Below the pieces are notes generated by a model that saw only the letters and a list, made by a program, of their open reading frames with translations, searched no databases and had not been told where the DNA came from. Positions 13,727 to 29,589 of a stretch of 37,858 bases of DNA are shown piece by piece. Both the position numbers and the translations under genes were made by a program. This DNA is from Candidatus Rokuibacteriota bacterium (GTDB lineage Bacteria > Methylomirabilota > Methylomirabilia > Rokubacteriales > CSP1-6): contig QHRU01000134.1 of NCBI GenBank assembly GCA_003220225.1, positions 1 to 37,858 of the forward strand, in the 5' to 3' direction. How positions within the stretch are numbered: the first letter of the stretch is position 1; each line of letters starts with the position of its first letter.

Positions 13727-14716
13727 GTGCTGACGGTGGCTGAGATCCCGATCTCCCTGACGTGCGCCGACTACGCGCGCGTCATGCCCCTCGCGACCGG
13801 TGAGGTGAAGCCGGAGCGGATCGCGCTCACGATGATCCTGGGCAGTCGGGGCTCGTGGCCGGCGCGCGCCGAGATGCTCCGTCGCGCCGTGCAGGACCCG
13901 CACGTGCAGGGCGGCGAGTGGTCGATGGCGCAGTACCTCTACCGCATCGACAAGGGCGATCGCCGCTACGTCGGCCTGCCGGTGTTTCCGCTGCGCAACT
14001 TCACGGCGCGCGACCTGTACGTCCGCCGCGGCGGCCCGATTCGGAAGCCCGCGGATCTGGCCGGCAAGCGCATCGGCATGTACAGCTACACGGCGAGCGG
14101 CTCCATCTGGTACCGGCACTTCCTGCGCTTCGTGGGTGTGGATCCGGCCGCCATCCAGTGGTGGGTCGGGGACATCGACACGCCCTGGTCGGCATCGATG
14201 GACCAGACGCTGCCTCCCGGCGTGAACGCGCCCGCGAAAGGACGGTCACTGTCGACGATGCTGCTCGATGGGGAGCTGGAGGCCATCTACAGCCCGCCGC
14301 GCCCGGAAGCCTATCACCCCGACGCGGGGCCCATCGCGCGCCTGTTCCCGGATTTCCGCCAGGTCGAGCACGAGTACTTTCGCAAGACCGGCGCGTTTCC
14401 TCCTCAGCATCTGATCGTTCTCCGGCGCGAGGCCTGGGAGGCGAACCGGTGGATCGCCAGGAGCCTCACCGAGGCGTTCAGCGCCGCCAACGAGTGCTTC
14501 ACCGCGTCGCAGAAGGGATTCCCGTACGCCACGCCGTGGCTGGAAGCGGAGCTCGAGGCCACGGCGGCGGTGATGGGGGAGGACTTCCACCCGTATGGGG
14601 TCGAGCGGAACCGGGCGCAGATCGAGATGTTCGCCGGCGAGGCGTTCCGGCTGGGCCTGACGAGCCGCCGGATCACGGTCGAAGACTATTTCGCGGACTA
14701 CCTGCACGGAGGCTGA
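13727..14716 (+). CDS. 4,5-dihydroxyphthalate decarboxylase-like / periplasmic-binding-fold protein
   Basis: This 329-residue protein lacks a signal peptide. It resembles the Pht5 (4,5-dihydroxyphthalate decarboxylase) and NMT1-like branch of the type 2 binding-protein fold: ISLTCADYARVMPLATGEVK at the N-terminus, a central NFTARDLYVRRGGPIRKPAD, then LAGKRIGMYSYTASGSIWYR, and PQHLIVLRREAWEAN near the C-terminus. Homologues are commonly annotated as ABC substrate-binding proteins or as this decarboxylase. The cytoplasmic form favours a catabolic role on an aromatic or related acid, but the activity is not proven. The start is uncertain: GTG 13727 has GGAGG only three bases upstream, while GTG 13736 has it 12 bases upstream. 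It ends one base before the convergent amidohydrolase stop. Confidence 0.78.
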   Translation: MLTVAEIPISLTCADYARVMPLATGEVKPERIALTMILGSRGSWPARAEMLRRAVQDPHVQGGEWSMAQYLYRIDKGDRRYVGLPVFPLRNFTARDLYVRRGGPIRKPADLAGKRIGMYSYTASGSIWYRHFLRFVGVDPAAIQWWVGDIDTPWSASMDQTLPPGVNAPAKGRSLSTMLLDGELEAIYSPPRPEAYHPDAGPIARLFPDFRQVEHEYFRKTGAFPPQHLIVLRREAWEANRWIARSLTEAFSAANECFTASQKGFPYATPWLEAELEATAAVMGEDFHPYGVERNRAQIEMFAGEAFRLGLTSRRITVEDYFADYLHGG

Positions 14717-23861: not shown

Positions 23862-24868
23862 CCGCGCGGCCCTACCACGTCTACGTCATCCAGGCGCGCG
23901 GGGAGCGCGACTTCTCCGACTGCCAGGCCGCGCTGGCCCACGTCCCCGCGCGCATGAGCGCGCTGCCCTTCATCGGCGACGCGGACGAGCTCATGGCCCG
24001 CACCCGCGACGCCGACGCGCTCGTCGTCGCGTTCTCGCCGGTCACGCGCGCCGTGATGAGCGCGCTCGAGGGGCTCAAGACGGTGGTGCGCACCGGCGTG
24101 GGCTACGACGTCGTCGACGTGCCCGCCGCCACCGAGCTGGGCGTGATCGTCGTGAACATCCCCGACATCTGGGTGCGCGAGGTCGCCAACCACGCGCTCG
24201 CCCTGCTGCTGGCGTGGAACCGCAAGATCGTCACGCTCGACCGCCAGGTGCGCGCGGGCGTGTGGAGCGGGGCGGTCCCCGGCGACCGCACCGGCGCGCT
24301 GCACGGCGAGACGGTCGGCATCGTGGGCCTGGGCAACATCGGCAGCGCGTTCGCGCGGCGCGTGGCTGCGCTCGAGACGAAGGTGATCGCGTGCGATCCC
24401 TACGTGGACGACGGGCACTTCGCCGCCCTCGGCGTCGAGCGCGTCTCGCTCGAGACGCTGGCCGAGCGGTCCGACTACGTCTCCGTCCACACGCTGCTGA
24501 ACGCCGAGACGCGCCACCTGATCGGCGAGACGTTCTTCAAGCGCATGAAGCCCACGGCCATTGTGATCAACACCTCGCGCGGTCCCGTGGTCGACGAGCA
24601 GGCGCTGGCCCGCGCGCTCCAGGAGCGGCGGCTGGCGGGCGCCGCGCTCGACGTGTGGGAGCAGGAGCCGGTCGCCGCCGACAACCCGCTGTTGAGGATG
24701 GACAACGTCATCGCCACGCCCCACGCGGCCTATTTTTCGACGGCGGCCGCGGCCGCGGTGCCGCGGAGGTGCGGCGAGGAGGTGGCGCGCGTCCTCACCG
24801 GGCAGCGCCCGCTCAACGTGGTGAACCCCGAGGTCTATGCGCCGCGAGCGGTGCGCCGCGCGCGCTGA
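23858..24868 (+). CDS. D-isomer-specific 2-hydroxyacid dehydrogenase
   Basis: The 336-residue enzyme has the NAD-binding GIVGLGNIGSAFARRV, the substrate Arg in INTSRGPVVDE, the catalytic His in ATPHAAYFS, and VRTGVGYDVVDVPAATELGV near the N-terminus. This matches the phosphoglycerate, hydroxypyruvate and D-lactate dehydrogenase family. No C-terminal ACT domain follows, so it is not a regulatory SerA. ATGA overlap with the preceding alpha/beta hydrolase shows translational coupling. In the operon it probably interconverts a 2-keto acid and a D-2-hydroxy acid derived from the substrate of the lyase and hydrolase. Confidence 0.9.
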   Translation: MTARPYHVYVIQARGERDFSDCQAALAHVPARMSALPFIGDADELMARTRDADALVVAFSPVTRAVMSALEGLKTVVRTGVGYDVVDVPAATELGVIVVNIPDIWVREVANHALALLLAWNRKIVTLDRQVRAGVWSGAVPGDRTGALHGETVGIVGLGNIGSAFARRVAALETKVIACDPYVDDGHFAALGVERVSLETLAERSDYVSVHTLLNAETRHLIGETFFKRMKPTAIVINTSRGPVVDEQALARALQERRLAGAALDVWEQEPVAADNPLLRMDNVIATPHAAYFSTAAAAAVPRRCGEEVARVLTGQRPLNVVNPEVYAPRAVRRAR

Positions 24869-24878
24869 CGAGGAGCCC

Positions 24879-26246
24879 ATGCTGGAGGAGCCGACCTCTC
24901 TGCGGATCGACGACCCGGGCGTGCGGGCGCTGTTCACCGAAGCCGCGCGCTTGCAGTCCTGGCTCGACGTGGAAGCCGCGCTCGCTCAGGCGCAGGCGGA
25001 GCTCGGAATCATCCCGGACGCCGCCGCCCGCGAGATCACGCGCAAGGCGCAGCTGAAGTACCTGGACCTCGCCGCCGTGCGGGCGGGCCTGGCGCGCACC
25101 GGCCATCCACTGGTGCCGCTCGTCTGGGAGCTGGATCGTGCGTGTGAGGGCGACGCCGGGGGCTACGTGCACTGGGGAGCGACGACCCAGAACGTCACGC
25201 AGACCGGTCAGCTCCTGCAGGTGCGCCGGGCCCACGAGATCTTCCTGCGGCAGCTCGCGACGATCTTGATCGCCCTCGCCGACCTCGCCGAGCGCACGAA
25301 GGACGCCCTGCTCCCGGGCCGCACGCATGGGCAACACGCGGTGCCCGCGACCTTCGGCTTCAAGGTGGCGGTGTGGATCGACGAGCTCTGCCGCCACGTG
25401 GAGCGTCTGCGCGGCGCCGAAGGACGGGTGTTCGTGGCCATGCTGGGCGGTGGCGCGGGGACGCTCGCCTCGCTCGGCGAGGCCGGTCTCGCGACCCAGG
25501 AGAGGATGGCGGCCCGTCTCGGAATGCGCGCGATGACCGTGCCCGCGCGCACCCTCGGCGATCACCAGGCGGAGTACGTCCTGCTGCTCGGCATGCTCGC
25601 CGCGACCTGCAGCAAGATCGGCCGCGAGATCTACACGCTCATGAAGCAGGAGTTCGGCGAAGTGGAGGAGCCGGTGCCGCCGGGCACGGTGGGCAGCAGC
25701 ACCATGCCCCAGAAGCGCAATCCGAAGCTCTCGCAGGACATCATCGCCGCCGCCGCGCAGATCCGCGCGCTGGTGCCGCTGGCCCTGGAAGCGATGCAGA
25801 CGGAGCACGAAGCCGACCGGACGACGAGCATCATGATGAGCCGCGCGCTGGTGCAGGCCTGCGAGCTCACCGGCGACATGCTGCAGCGGATGATGACGCT
25901 CCTCGACGGGCTGCAGGTGTTCCCCGATCGCATGCGCGAGAATCTCGAGCTGTCGGGCGGCCTGATCATGGCCGAGGCGCTCATGCTCGAGCTCGGCAAG
26001 GAGATCGGACGTCAACGCGCCCACGACGCCGTCTACGAGGCGGCCCAGGCCTCGGTCACGCAGGCGCGGCCGTTCCGCGAGACCCTGGCCGACGATCCAC
26101 ACGTGAGCGCCGGTCTGACGAAGTCCCAGGTCGACGCCTTGCTCGACCCCGCGCGCTACACCGGCCTCTGTCGCCACTTCGCCGAGCGCGGCGCCGCGCT
26201 GGCCCGCGCGACCGCCGCCGAACTCCAGTCGCGCGCGGCGAGCTAG
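24879..26246 (+). CDS. Fumarase/aspartase-superfamily lyase (adenylosuccinate lyase / PcaB-like)
   Basis: The 455-residue protein carries the superfamily signature GSSTMPQKRNPK with the mobile-loop Ser, plus YVHWGATTQNVTQTG and GRTHGQHAVPATFGFKVAVW with the catalytic His. The C-terminal helical domain is of the adenylosuccinate lyase / 3-carboxy-muconate cycloisomerase type. TTQN replaces the TSQD seen in canonical purine PurB, and no purine genes are near. A catabolic lyase acting on a substituted succinate or muconate is therefore more likely than PurB. The ATG at 24879 follows AGGAG closely. It is last in its operon, and its TAG stop is the first triplet of the tandem-repeat array. Confidence 0.87.
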   Translation: MLEEPTSLRIDDPGVRALFTEAARLQSWLDVEAALAQAQAELGIIPDAAAREITRKAQLKYLDLAAVRAGLARTGHPLVPLVWELDRACEGDAGGYVHWGATTQNVTQTGQLLQVRRAHEIFLRQLATILIALADLAERTKDALLPGRTHGQHAVPATFGFKVAVWIDELCRHVERLRGAEGRVFVAMLGGGAGTLASLGEAGLATQERMAARLGMRAMTVPARTLGDHQAEYVLLLGMLAATCSKIGREIYTLMKQEFGEVEEPVPPGTVGSSTMPQKRNPKLSQDIIAAAAQIRALVPLALEAMQTEHEADRTTSIMMSRALVQACELTGDMLQRMMTLLDGLQVFPDRMRENLELSGGLIMAEALMLELGKEIGRQRAHDAVYEAAQASVTQARPFRETLADDPHVSAGLTKSQVDALLDPARYTGLCRHFAERGAALARATAAELQSRAAS

Positions 26247-26440
26247 AGGAGCGTCAAGGCTCCGCGCCGCCACCCCGCGCGATAGAGGGGCGCCCCGGCT
26301 CCGCCGCCGCCACGCTCGCGAGATAGAGGAGCGCCCCCGCGCCGCCGCCGCCCCCCGCGCGAGTTAGAGGAGCGCCACGGCTCCGCCGCCGCCACGCTCG
26401 CGAGATAGAGGAGCGCCACGGCTTCGCCGGGGCGCTCCGA
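26244..26440 (+). repeat. Tandem array of about 41-bp GC-rich units
   Basis: Four full units start at 26244 (39 bp), 26283, 26324 and 26365 (41 bp each), and a partial fifth starts at 26406. Each begins TAGAGGAGCGCC or a close variant and runs through CGGCTCCGCCGCCGCCACGC to a GCGCGAGA-like end. Units differ at a few positions, so they are degenerate direct repeats without spacers. The first unit contains the stop codon of the lyase gene. There are no unique spacers and no cas genes, so this is not CRISPR. It may be a REP/BIME-like intergenic repeat expanded by slippage. Confidence 0.85.
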
Positions 26441-26455
26441 ACGTCGGGGGGGTTT

Positions 26456-26487
26456 GGGGGGCCATATCGGGGCCCCCCATTTTTATT
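26456..26487 (+). terminator. Rho-independent terminator after the lyase operon
   Basis: GGGGGGCC (26456-26463) pairs with GGCCCCCC (26471-26478) around a seven-base loop, followed by ATTTTTATT. This is a textbook plus-strand intrinsic terminator for the operon ending at 26246. On the minus strand the same stem follows the MalG-type permease stop but lacks a U-tract. The stem is also part of a repeat element with a second copy near 28183-28262. Confidence 0.8.
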
Positions 26488-27316
26488 GTTTCACGGCGCC
26501 GAACGTGAGCCCGGTGACGATGTGCCGCTGCGCGAGCAGCGCGACGAGCAGCACGGGCAGGGTGATGAGCGTGGCGGCGGCCGCGAGGGTGCCCCAGTTG
26601 ATCTCTTCGTACGAGATCATGTTGTACACGGCGATGGGCAGGGTGCGCGTCGTCCGGCCGGCCAGGATCACCGAGAACAGGAAGTTGTTCCAGGAGAACA
26701 CGAAGGACAGGATCCCCGTCGCCACCACGCCGGGCTTCACGAGCGGCAGCGCGATGCGCCAGAAGACGCCCAGGTGCGAGCAGCCGTCGATGAGGGCGGC
26801 GTCCGCCAGATCGGCCGGCACGTCCTCGAAGAACGAGATCATGACCCAGATGATGATGGGCAGCCCCACGATGAGGTGGGTGAGGATCAGCGCGCCGTAG
26901 GTGTCCACCATCCGGAGACTCCGAAAGAAGATGTACCAGGGGATCAGGTAGGCAATGCCCGGAATGATGCGCGCGACCAGGATGATCACGGCCAGCTGTT
27001 GCTGGCGCCAGCGGGCGATGGAGTAGGCGGCGGGCAATCCCACCGCGAGCCCGAGCAGCGTACAGCCCGTCGCCACTACCAGACTGTTCCACGTGTAGAG
27101 GAAGAACGGGTACTTCGTGAAGACCTCGCGATAGCCCGCCAGCGTGACGCTGAAGCGGACGAACGACGGCGGATAGGCCGTCGCCTCGATCTGCGGCTTG
27201 AGCGAGAGCGTGAGCATCCAGTAGAAGACGAACACCGTCGGCAGCATGAAGAGCGCGGCGAGCGCGTAGAACCCGGCCGTGGAGAGCCAGCGGCGCCGCG
27301 CGCTCCCCCTCACCAC
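26483..27316 (-). CDS. ABC sugar-type importer permease (MalG-like)
   Basis: The 277-residue protein has six predicted membrane helices and the binding-protein-dependent EAA loop ADAALIDGCSHLGVFWRIAL followed by PLVKPG, typical of MalG/UgpE-type permeases of the carbohydrate CUT1 family. The GTG at 27316 overlaps the end of the MalF-type gene by seven bases, so the two are translationally coupled. It forms the membrane pore with that protein and would need an MsmX/UgpC-type ATPase, which is not encoded here. Its stop lies in the T-tract of the convergent terminator. Confidence 0.88.
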   Translation of the reverse strand: MVRGSARRRWLSTAGFYALAALFMLPTVFVFYWMLTLSLKPQIEATAYPPSFVRFSVTLAGYREVFTKYPFFLYTWNSLVVATGCTLLGLAVGLPAAYSIARWRQQQLAVIILVARIIPGIAYLIPWYIFFRSLRMVDTYGALILTHLIVGLPIIIWVMISFFEDVPADLADAALIDGCSHLGVFWRIALPLVKPGVVATGILSFVFSWNNFLFSVILAGRTTRTLPIAVYNMISYEEINWGTLAAAATLITLPVLLVALLAQRHIVTGLTFGAVKQ

Positions 27317-28263
27317 GTCGTGCTCCGCCGCACCTTGATCAGGATCAGCGAGGCGCCCATGACGAGGGCGAAGAGCGCGACGGCCATGGACGAGGCGTAG
27401 CCCATGTTGAAGTAGGAGAACGCCTGGTTGAAGAGCAGGAGATTGATGGTCTCGGTCGCGTTGGCGGGCCCGCCCTGGGTCATGACGAAGATGATGTCGA
27501 ACGTCTTCAGCGCGTCGATGGCGCGGAACAGGATCGCCACCACGAGCGCGGGCCGCAGCAGCGGCAGCGTGATGTGCCAGAACGCTTGTCGCGGGGAGGC
27601 GCCGTCGAGATGCGCGGCCTCATAGGGCTCGCGCGGCAGGCTGGCGAGGCCGGCGAGCGTGATGAGCATGATCAGCGGCGTCCACTGCCACACGTCCACC
27701 AGCGCCAGCGCGTAGAGCGCGGTCTGGCTCGAGTACGTCCAGCGGAACGGCGAGAGGCCGACGACCGAGACGAGGTAGTTCGCCACGCCGAGGGTCGGGT
27801 GATACATCATCACGAACACCAGCGCGATGGCGGTCGGCGTCGCCACCATCGGCAGGATGGCCAGCGTGCGCAGCAGGCCCCGCCCCCAGAACTCTCGGTT
27901 GAAGAGCAGGGCCATGGCGACACCGAGCAGCGTCTCCGCCGCGACGGCCACGACGGTGAACCAGATGGTCCGCGCCACGGCCTCCCGGAATCGCGCGTCG
28001 CCCAGGAGGATCTTGCCGTAGTTCGCCAGCCCGATGAAGCGCGGCCGGGTGAGGCTGGAGGCGAACCACTCTTGAAGACTCATCCATCCGGTGTAGGCGA
28101 TCGGATAGACGATGATCACGGCGACGAGCAGCACGGCCGGCGCCGGAAAGAGCCATCGCGCGTGACGGTGGGCCCACTGGCTGGGGGGCCTCGAAGGGCC
28201 CCCCAGACCCCCCGAGCGCTCGGCACGCCCCGGCAAAGCCGTGGCGCGCCTCGTTAGTCGCAC
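27310..28263 (-). CDS. ABC sugar-type importer permease (MalF-like); N-terminus encoded by a repeat element
   Basis: The 317-residue reading has six predicted membrane helices, beginning ARWLFPAPAVLLVAVIIVYP, and the EAA loop EAAHLDGASPRQAFWHITLP of MalF/UgpA-type permeases, then DIIFVMTQGGPANATE. The first 29 residues (MRLTRRATALPGRAERSGGL and onward) are translated from a hairpin repeat element homologous to 26406-26478. No in-frame ATG or GTG exists between that element and the first helix, so the true start is probably GTG 28263 or an in-frame TTG inside the element. It begins seven bases after the binding-protein stop. Confidence 0.83.
   Translation of the reverse strand: MRLTRRATALPGRAERSGGLGGPSRPPSQWAHRHARWLFPAPAVLLVAVIIVYPIAYTGWMSLQEWFASSLTRPRFIGLANYGKILLGDARFREAVARTIWFTVVAVAAETLLGVAMALLFNREFWGRGLLRTLAILPMVATPTAIALVFVMMYHPTLGVANYLVSVVGLSPFRWTYSSQTALYALALVDVWQWTPLIMLITLAGLASLPREPYEAAHLDGASPRQAFWHITLPLLRPALVVAILFRAIDALKTFDIIFVMTQGGPANATETINLLLFNQAFSYFNMGYASSMAVALFALVMGASLILIKVRRSTTW
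28183..28262 (-). repeat. Inverted copy of the hairpin repeat element
   Basis: Read on the minus strand, this segment aligns closely with 26406-26478. Both have CGCCACGGCTTxGCCGGGGCG, a G-rich run, TxTGGGGGGCC and a GGGGGGCC/GGCCCCCC stem (here 28183-28190 with 28197-28204, loop TCGAAG). The two copies lie in opposite orientation about 1.7 kb apart and bracket the two permease genes. No T-tract follows, so the hairpin here is more likely to shape mRNA stability or translation between the binding-protein and permease genes than to terminate fully. Confidence 0.75.
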
Positions 28264-28269
28264 TCCGTG

Positions 28270-29589
28270 CTAGCTCTCGGTCCGATTGAGGAGGTCCTGA
28301 AAGTCTTTCTGCGCCTGCGCGAGGACCTGGGCGGCCGGCGCGCCCTCGATCCCTTTCTGGATGGCGACGCCGATGATGTCGCGGTACTCGGTGACGCCGA
28401 CGATCTCCGGCAGTCCCTGCCGGCCGATCTTGAGCGAGGCCTGATAGGCCTGATACCAGTCGGCCGGCATCTTCGGCTTGGCCTTGACGTCCGGGCTGTC
28501 CCACGTCGAGGCCCGGCCCACGCCGACGCCGGCCATGAGCTCGCGCACCATGTTGGTCTTGTTCGTCGCCCACTGCGCGAACAGGTAGGCGGCTTCGTGG
28601 TTGCGGCTCTGAGCGTTGACCGCCATGCCGGTGATGTAGATCGGCGAGAAGTGGCCGCCGGGACCCGAGGGCAGGACGGCGTAGCCGACCTTGCCGATCA
28701 CCTTGGATTTCGCCGCGTCCTCGAACTGACTCGCGAAGTTCACGCCGTCCATGTAGATGGCGACTTGCCCCTGCATGAAGGCCGCGGAGCACTCGTACCA
28801 GTTGAAGTTCACCACGCCGGGCGGCCCGTATTGCCGGAGCAGCCGCGTGTACATCTCGAGCGCGGCCACCTGCTCCTTGCTGTCGAGCGCGGCCTTGCCG
28901 TCCTTCAGATAGGTGCCGCCCATGGGGAACAGGATGCTCGGATACTGGGTGGCGTTCGCGTTCTTGAGCCCGCGCAGCACGATGCCATACGTGCCGGGCG
29001 GAGCGTGGAGCTTCTTCACGAGCGGCTCGAGGTCGGCGAGCGTTTTGGGCGGCGTCAGGCCCTTCGGGCCGAAGAGATCCTTCCGGTAGAAGACGACGTT
29101 CGCGTCCACGAACGCGGCGAGGGCGGAGACGCTCCCGTCCGGCTGGGTGACCCCGGCCCGGGCGCCTGGCGTGAAGTCGTTCCAGTCGAAGTCGGGGCTG
29201 GTCAGCGTCGGATCGGCGAGGAACTTGTTCAGGGGGTGGTACCAGCCCGCCTTCCAGAAGCGCTTCTTCTCGACGTGGAGCGAGGTGAAGAAGGCGTCGA
29301 TGCCGCCGGAGTTCGCGGTCATCTCCACGGTCATCTTCTGCCGCGCCTGGATCTCGGGCAGCGTCTCCCACTTGACCTTCATCCCGGAGAGCGACTCGAA
29401 CTCGGGGATGTTCTTCTCGAGCACGTCGATGAACGGATGCTTGGTCAGGAGCAGGAACAGCTCCTTGCCCGAAAAGCGCTTCCAGTTGAAGCCTTGCGCC
29501 CGCGCCGGCGTCCAGACGAAGGGCCCGGCGGCGACGCCGGCGGCCACCGACTTCAAGAAATGGCGACGGGTGAATCGGCGAGCGGCCAT
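28270..29589 (-). CDS. ABC importer extracellular solute-binding protein, family 1, Tat-exported
   Basis: The 439-residue protein begins with a twin-arginine signal FTRRHFLKSVAAGVAAGP, with cleavage likely after ARA near residue 31. It has the family-1 sugar-binding layout: VLEKNIPEFESLSGMKVKWE, then TANSGGIDAFFTSLHVEKKR, WYECSAAFMQGQVAIYMDGV and GMAVNAQSRNHEAAYLFAQW. It would deliver a sugar or similar polar solute to the two permeases downstream. Tat export implies folding before export. A good GGAG precedes the ATG. It heads the minus-strand binding-protein and permease operon and is divergent from another Tat-dependent binding protein. Confidence 0.87.
   Translation of the reverse strand: MAARRFTRRHFLKSVAAGVAAGPFVWTPARAQGFNWKRFSGKELFLLLTKHPFIDVLEKNIPEFESLSGMKVKWETLPEIQARQKMTVEMTANSGGIDAFFTSLHVEKKRFWKAGWYHPLNKFLADPTLTSPDFDWNDFTPGARAGVTQPDGSVSALAAFVDANVVFYRKDLFGPKGLTPPKTLADLEPLVKKLHAPPGTYGIVLRGLKNANATQYPSILFPMGGTYLKDGKAALDSKEQVAALEMYTRLLRQYGPPGVVNFNWYECSAAFMQGQVAIYMDGVNFASQFEDAAKSKVIGKVGYAVLPSGPGGHFSPIYITGMAVNAQSRNHEAAYLFAQWATNKTNMVRELMAGVGVGRASTWDSPDVKAKPKMPADWYQAYQASLKIGRQGLPEIVGVTEYRDIIGVAIQKGIEGAPAAQVLAQAQKDFQDLLNRTES

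Follow-up and report, generated by a model that had tools for sequence, protein, structure and literature searches.

Small double-hairpin repeats form a large dispersed family around genes of a Candidatus Rokuibacteriota genome

The stretch of DNA analyzed here (the window; 37,858 nucleotides of contig QHRU01000134.1) carries three open reading frames in succession on its minus strand: a gene that presumably encodes a substrate-binding protein (SBP; 28270-29589, stop codon 28270-28272), a malF-type permease frame downstream of it (27310-28263), and a malG-type permease gene (26483-27316), the permease labels being those of an initial sequence-only reading. On the plus strand, an open reading frame also called by the gene caller (24837-26246) converges on malG and, from its signature, is assumed by us to belong to a lyase superfamily. 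Among these genes lie two copies of one element of ~85 nt with two stem-loops, H1 and H2, whose G-rich strand is termed strand A. Copy 1 (26401-26485, strand A on the plus strand) sits between the convergent lyase-like and malG-type genes and scores 107.7 bits against the covariance model R1 described below. Its H1 (26410-26438), which reads GGAGCGCC-A-CGGC ttc GCCG-G-GGCGCTCC, is followed by a G-rich linker holding a second G run, by H2 (26456-26478), and by a T-rich tail (26479-26485) in which the malG stop codon (26483-26485) is located. Copy 2 (28176-28259, strand A on the minus strand, 81.5 bits) lies directly past the SBP gene, in the 5' part of the malF frame, with H1 at about 28222-28250, H2 at 28183-28204, and no T tail. 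The copies point toward each other, T-tail ends inward, across malG and malF.

An inverted pair of hairpin elements around the permease genes had been proposed from the sequence alone, and the pair is real: segments 26408-26477 and 28183-28252 are 79% complementary over 70 nt, the longest such pair that a repeat search found in the region, and both copies are matched by the covariance model. The motif CGCCACGGCTTxGCCG is found in both, and the GGGGGGCC .. GGCCCCCC stem of H2 was confirmed at each site, while the limits first given for the pair proved slightly too narrow. When each strand of each copy was folded against 200 dinucleotide shuffles, 0, 0, 3, and 1 shuffles were as good (z between -2.5 and -5.4). 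Previously overlooked was a tandem array of degenerate units of the H1 5' half (plus strand, 26238-26429; TRF, period 41, 4.7 copies), which runs into copy 1 and within whose first unit the lyase gene ends, with its TAG stop codon at 26244-26246.

Orthologs of the SBP gene are 87-95% identical in Candidatus Rokuibacteriota MAGs (9/20 loci), which places the host in this group or very close to it. The longest exact word common to copies 1 and 2 is 12 nt, and the order and strand of SBP and MalG are identical in all 14 related loci with a MalG match beside the SBP match (a comparison made without L077, whose contig ends after the SBP and whose sole MalG match, at 36%, lies elsewhere, and without L085-L088, L090, and L091, which have no MalG match). 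Hence, there is no sign of inversion, and the suggestion that the inverted copies allow the 1.7-kb permease segment to flip was rejected. The lyase gene is convergent with and downstream of malG in the window and in G002/L075, and divergent and upstream of the SBP gene in L072. In G002, several hundred bp of other sequence separate lyase from malG, and the lyase gene (stretch L137) terminates in GCGAGATAGATAGAGGAGCG, which resembles a leftover of the 5' lead of the element.

Copy 2 had been described as an intercistronic hairpin, but it actually lies within the malF open reading frame. This frame is open from GTG 28263 right through the copy and is thereby about 25 codons longer than in the L073 ortholog, where a GTG occupies the same place; by sequence inspection, the malF frame of L076 is likewise open through its own copy, from TTG. 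We infer these start codons from the ortholog comparison. A second instance is an acyl-CoA-ligase-like open reading frame of 658 aa (L113:6810-8786, minus strand), in which two element copies are read in frame at residues about 316-364. The G010 ortholog has a short loop instead, and the copies add about 30 residues.

Model R1 was built from 30 copies, among them both window copies, which therefore match it partly by construction. A BLAST search with the plus copy alone returned at least 71 matches in the window's genome, full-length ones included (from the best 40 of 277 candidates), and R1 returned at least 150 copies in the same 6.03-Mb genome (from the best 150 of 9,119 candidates). In an 837,858-base sample, consisting of the window and 40 stretches of 20 kb from six large contigs that were picked for length but were already known to hold matches, 43 R1 matches reached at least 44 bits, or about 51 per Mb; extrapolation from this sample gives ~300 copies per genome. 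Alignments between copies span about 80 nt and take in both the linker and H1, with identities of up to 95%. Double-sided changes occur in 5 of 21 pairs, with a covariation score of 0.094 vs 0.024 for shuffled alignments, and the signal vanishes when pairing partners are slid. Genome-wide dispersal, as the sequence-only reading had supposed, is thus borne out, and two grounds on which it might have failed fall away: (i) further copies exist in the genome, at least 150 by the covariance model, and (ii) the identity exceeds that of mere GC-rich hairpins, as indicated by the shuffles, the double-sided pair changes, and the full-length copies that BLAST found elsewhere.

Beyond this genome, R1 has matches at E ≤ 0.001 in 20 of the 40 relatives scanned, and at E ≤ 1e-5 in 46 of the 60 genomes scanned from the order (Candidatus Rokuibacteriota and relatives). 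It gave none in 13 genomes that belong to the same class but to other families. Copy number is patchy across genera, with at least 10 matches in 29 of the 60 genomes (several of them counted as at least 75 matches) and none in 14. An Rfam covariance search at the gathering score gave no matches in the window, and no earlier reports of such repeats in Rokubacteria or Methylomirabilota were found among the open-access papers searched. The element is a large dispersed family of small double-hairpin repeats across the window's bacterial family.

As read from sequence comparisons, copies come and go between related genomes. The minus copy is missing from the SBP-malF junction of the relative G002; at the same junction, L076 has a degenerate copy, and L072-L075, L077, and L078 have none. 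In L072, a copy lies past malG in an orientation relative to malG opposite to that of the window's plus copy, consistent with independent gains. The G000 copy at L105 13835 is missing in G002 and, from match coordinates, in G001, and the copy at L105 3164 is missing in G001. Conversely, the G002 copy at L138 5572 is missing in G000. Several sites were left out of the clean evidence from G000 vs G002: L123 2421, where one side of the G002 contig shows 100% identity before a switch at the element, so that the contig is probably chimeric; L124 3500 and 8935/9098, where unrelated-looking sequence that has different hairpins stands instead; L124 5400, with an H1 remnant in G002; and L105 264 and L123 8914, with elements in both genomes. 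In the reverse comparison of 11 sites, three were without a paired flank, the stretches at L142 3645 and L141 5932 were too long and were not used, and L138 7779, L134 3953, L139 446, and L143 2528 hold elements in both genomes; at L134 900, G002 has an H2-only copy that G000 lacks. The family also varies in form, with a long form carrying a middle hairpin between H1 and H2, lone H2 copies, H1 arrays, and, in G002, a head-to-tail array of four near-identical units of about 91 bp. Among the 150 copies listed for the window's genome, close neighbors (<300 bp) have the same orientation in eight of eight pairs. A separate observation concerns L138:1-1440 (G002 contig C506), which is 100% identical to the window's genome and switches at an element; it is probably a chimera of metagenome assembly, with the join at the repeat.

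The position of the element relative to genes was assessed in the sample with a simple purpose-made gene caller (92-93% coding). The 43 matches make up 37 sites: 25 convergent, 9 tandem codirectional (one of them within a gene), 2 tandem opposed (one of them hinging on a low-scoring gene call), and 1 divergent. Relative to element-free spacer length, this is an excess of convergent sites (P = 2e-14) and a deficit of divergent ones (P = 1e-5), and the tandem sites are biased toward strand A in the gene direction (9 vs 2, P = 0.03). At 13 of the 25 convergent sites, the stop codon of the opposite gene overlaps the 3' edge of the element, and at 4 the stop of the other gene overlaps the 5' edge. 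Convergent spacers that lack an element have a median length of 10 nt, so such tight packing is expected and is no proof of targeting. In the 8 nt past H2 on strand A, four or more T residues occur in 21 of 54 canonical copies and five or more in 7, against 4.4% and 0.9%, respectively, in a background of random intergenic windows. The tract is weak in most copies (fewer than four T in 33 of 54), and past H1 on the opposite strand, no copy of the 54 attains four.

Proteobacteria are where REP-like repeats have been studied best, and RAYT is a plausible mobilizer of the GTAG REPs. The sequence-only reading had offered REP/BIME-like elements or a small MITE as the type of repeat. The first label applies in size, palindromy, copy number, and position, high copy number with extragenic, 3'-of-gene placement being a REP/BIME trait that the element shows, but not as strict membership, given the head-to-tail neighbors and the results for RAYT and the tags. 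A search for PF01797 (Y1_Tnp/RAYT) gave no matches in the window's genome (97% complete) or two congeners, and was positive in 5 of 14 control genomes. Over the 60 genomes of the order, Y1 was found in 1 of the 29 with at least 10 element matches (G012, a partial match) vs 10 of the 31 that have fewer. Contigs lost from an assembly might conceal a Y1 gene in a single genome, but scarcely in every one of them. No GTAG tag is conserved at either edge (alignment A1) or in the flanks of 54 copies, and no CGTC tag is conserved beside the stem, where the linker reads C, G/A, T/C and is then variable (A1). As far as this genome shows, the family would have spread by a route other than Y1/RAYT.

The MITE label, in its classical sense, was not supported. 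The element has no terminal inverted repeats, its 5' TAGAGG/TCGAGG and 3' CCCCCCAT ends not being mutual inverted copies, and target duplications show no general excess in 54 copies at fixed offset, in 75 copies with flexible limits, or in 49 of these 75 after 26 with another element in the flank were dropped. Flanking repeats of at least 8 nt occur in 2 of the 49 copies vs 0.25 expected, a level reached by 5 of 300 shuffles. Two copies with empty orthologs have duplicated flanks: CGATGAGC is repeated around a long-form copy that G001 lacks, and CGGTGAG around a G002 copy that G000 lacks. Both duplications, of 7-8 nt, are at operon sites and span an overlapping stop/start codon. In addition, the lead TGAGACAY is common to 5 of 75 copies, four of which have NTGAG in the tail. 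As there is no overall excess of flanking repeats in the 49 copies, the junction duplications are a lead and not a rule.

The closest described analogues are the pneumococcal SPRITE and BOX and the Rickettsia RPE. SPRITE is the nearest functional analogue: in the passages of PMC3049150 consulted, it is a terminator-like stem-loop, dispersed and overrepresented in convergent spacers and close to 3' ends, with no clear target duplication and no spreading enzyme identified, all of which resembles the present element. It differs in being AT-rich, with 30 copies, one 18-bp stem, and a long T-rich tract, whereas the present element is GC-rich, with two hairpins, hundreds of copies, and a weak T tract. 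BOX, according to the same partial source, is modular, with end modules and optional or repeated middle ones that recall the H1-H2 and H1-middle-H2 forms, the H1 arrays, and the lone H2 copies, but it has terminal inverted repeats and target duplications (PMC3049150), whereas the present element has neither inverted ends nor duplications as a general feature. As far as the accessible parts of PMC3733652 and PMC8266576 go, REP/BIME elements are short palindromes of high copy number, intergenic with a convergent or codirectional bias and sometimes intragenic, which is like the present family; they differ in being 20-50 nt palindromes with a GTAG/CGTC tag, often in inverted dimers, the GTAG type being tied to RAYT, while the present element has two hairpins, no tag, head-to-tail neighbors, and no Y1 gene. 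The same excerpts report CGTC-type REPs without a dedicated transposase (PMC3733652, PMC8266576). RPE is a palindromic element that is read in frame inside ordinary genes, as here, but is ~150 bp long with frequent in-gene insertion in the excerpts at hand (PMC10969869), and in-gene copies are exceptional in the present element.

We consider it probable, at roughly 60%, that this is a REP-like family of gene-end elements in which H2 and its T-rich tail terminate or protect transcripts on strand A. When strand A is transcribed, H2 with the tail would act as an intrinsic terminator or as a hairpin protecting the 3' end, and H1 and H1 arrays may contribute further stable structure. Copies would persist because they are tolerated, or put to use, at gene ends and in convergent spacers. 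A terminator role had been proposed for one of the two sites, and copy 1 does contain a predicted site of this kind with a T-rich tail (26455-26479), termination itself being a prediction. There, lyase transcripts would stop at the element, which would keep read-through from running antisense into malG; a benefit for the end of malG itself is less clear, because the opposite strand has no T tract. At the minus site, hairpins at the start of malF translation, with no T tail, may keep malFG output below that of the binding protein. A parallel to these hairpins is the E. coli malE-malF REP.

The position bias can also stem from selection against insertions elsewhere, and function is not required. 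The family may accordingly be read as a neutral or selfish non-autonomous mobile repeat, its bias reflecting purifying selection at about 93% coding and its hairpins serving mobility. Copies missing in relatives at several sites, the in-frame copies within genes, the two empty-site comparisons with flanking duplications, and the patchy copy number with 14 matchless genomes all suit such a repeat, but T-tail enrichment on one strand only and the 9 vs 2 tandem orientation bias are unexpected from it, and we regard it as possible though somewhat unlikely. More speculative, and in our view unlikely as it stands, is the idea that the element serves as a portable cassette for gene ends, carried to new sites by a non-Y1 enzyme whose cuts fall at gene junctions. 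In operons, such a cassette would land where stop and start codons overlap (ATGA or GTGA) and duplicate 7-8 nt, so that the upstream gene retains its stop and the downstream gene its start, the two being separated by the terminator-like double hairpin. Where genes converge, it would meet both stop codons, and H1 and H2 would be its left and right ends, recognized as single-stranded hairpins.

The remaining alternatives carry far less weight. A true REP/BIME (or REPIN) mobilized by RAYT would account for the size, palindromy, copy number above 100, and extragenic, convergent location that the available part of PMC3733652 gives for REPs, and the H1 stem retains a mismatch (A1). It is made highly improbable by the missing Y1_Tnp in the window's genome and two congeners, the scarcity of Y1 in element-rich genomes, the absent tags, and the uniform orientation of close neighbors. 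Almost no credence is left for unrelated GC-rich terminators that came to look alike by chance or convergence; the genome is GC-rich and the form terminator-like, but alignments of ~80 nt that include linker and H1, the arrays, and the presence or absence of copies speak against it, and the full-length BLAST copies and at least 150 covariance-model copies refute it. Pairs of a DNA-uptake-type signal that form terminators, as in Neisseria, are just as hard to credit. Uptake sequences are known to form hairpins at the ends of convergent genes (PMC1852404), but none of five counted element 10-mers is abundant outside the element (GAGGAGCGCC has 41 occurrences in 838 kb, of which 23 lie in or near elements), and this candidate was rejected for lack of hundreds of lone core words.

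The family amounts to about one copy per 20 kb in the genome of this soil bacterium from an uncultivated lineage. Because this genome shows no Y1 transposase, it is a clean case for asking what else can spread such repeats. Since gene ends are marked so regularly, the element could help map transcript ends where RNA data are lacking, and it is a repeat able to mislead metagenome assembly. A second, unrelated palindromic repeat family was also seen on contigs of the same genome, intergenic and sometimes tandem, with a unit like GTGCGAGCCGCAGCCGxAGGCGAGGCGAGCCTGTGA (C147:61062-61212, L130; C113:3026-3130 and 13947-13996, L102; C108:90149-90188, L096).
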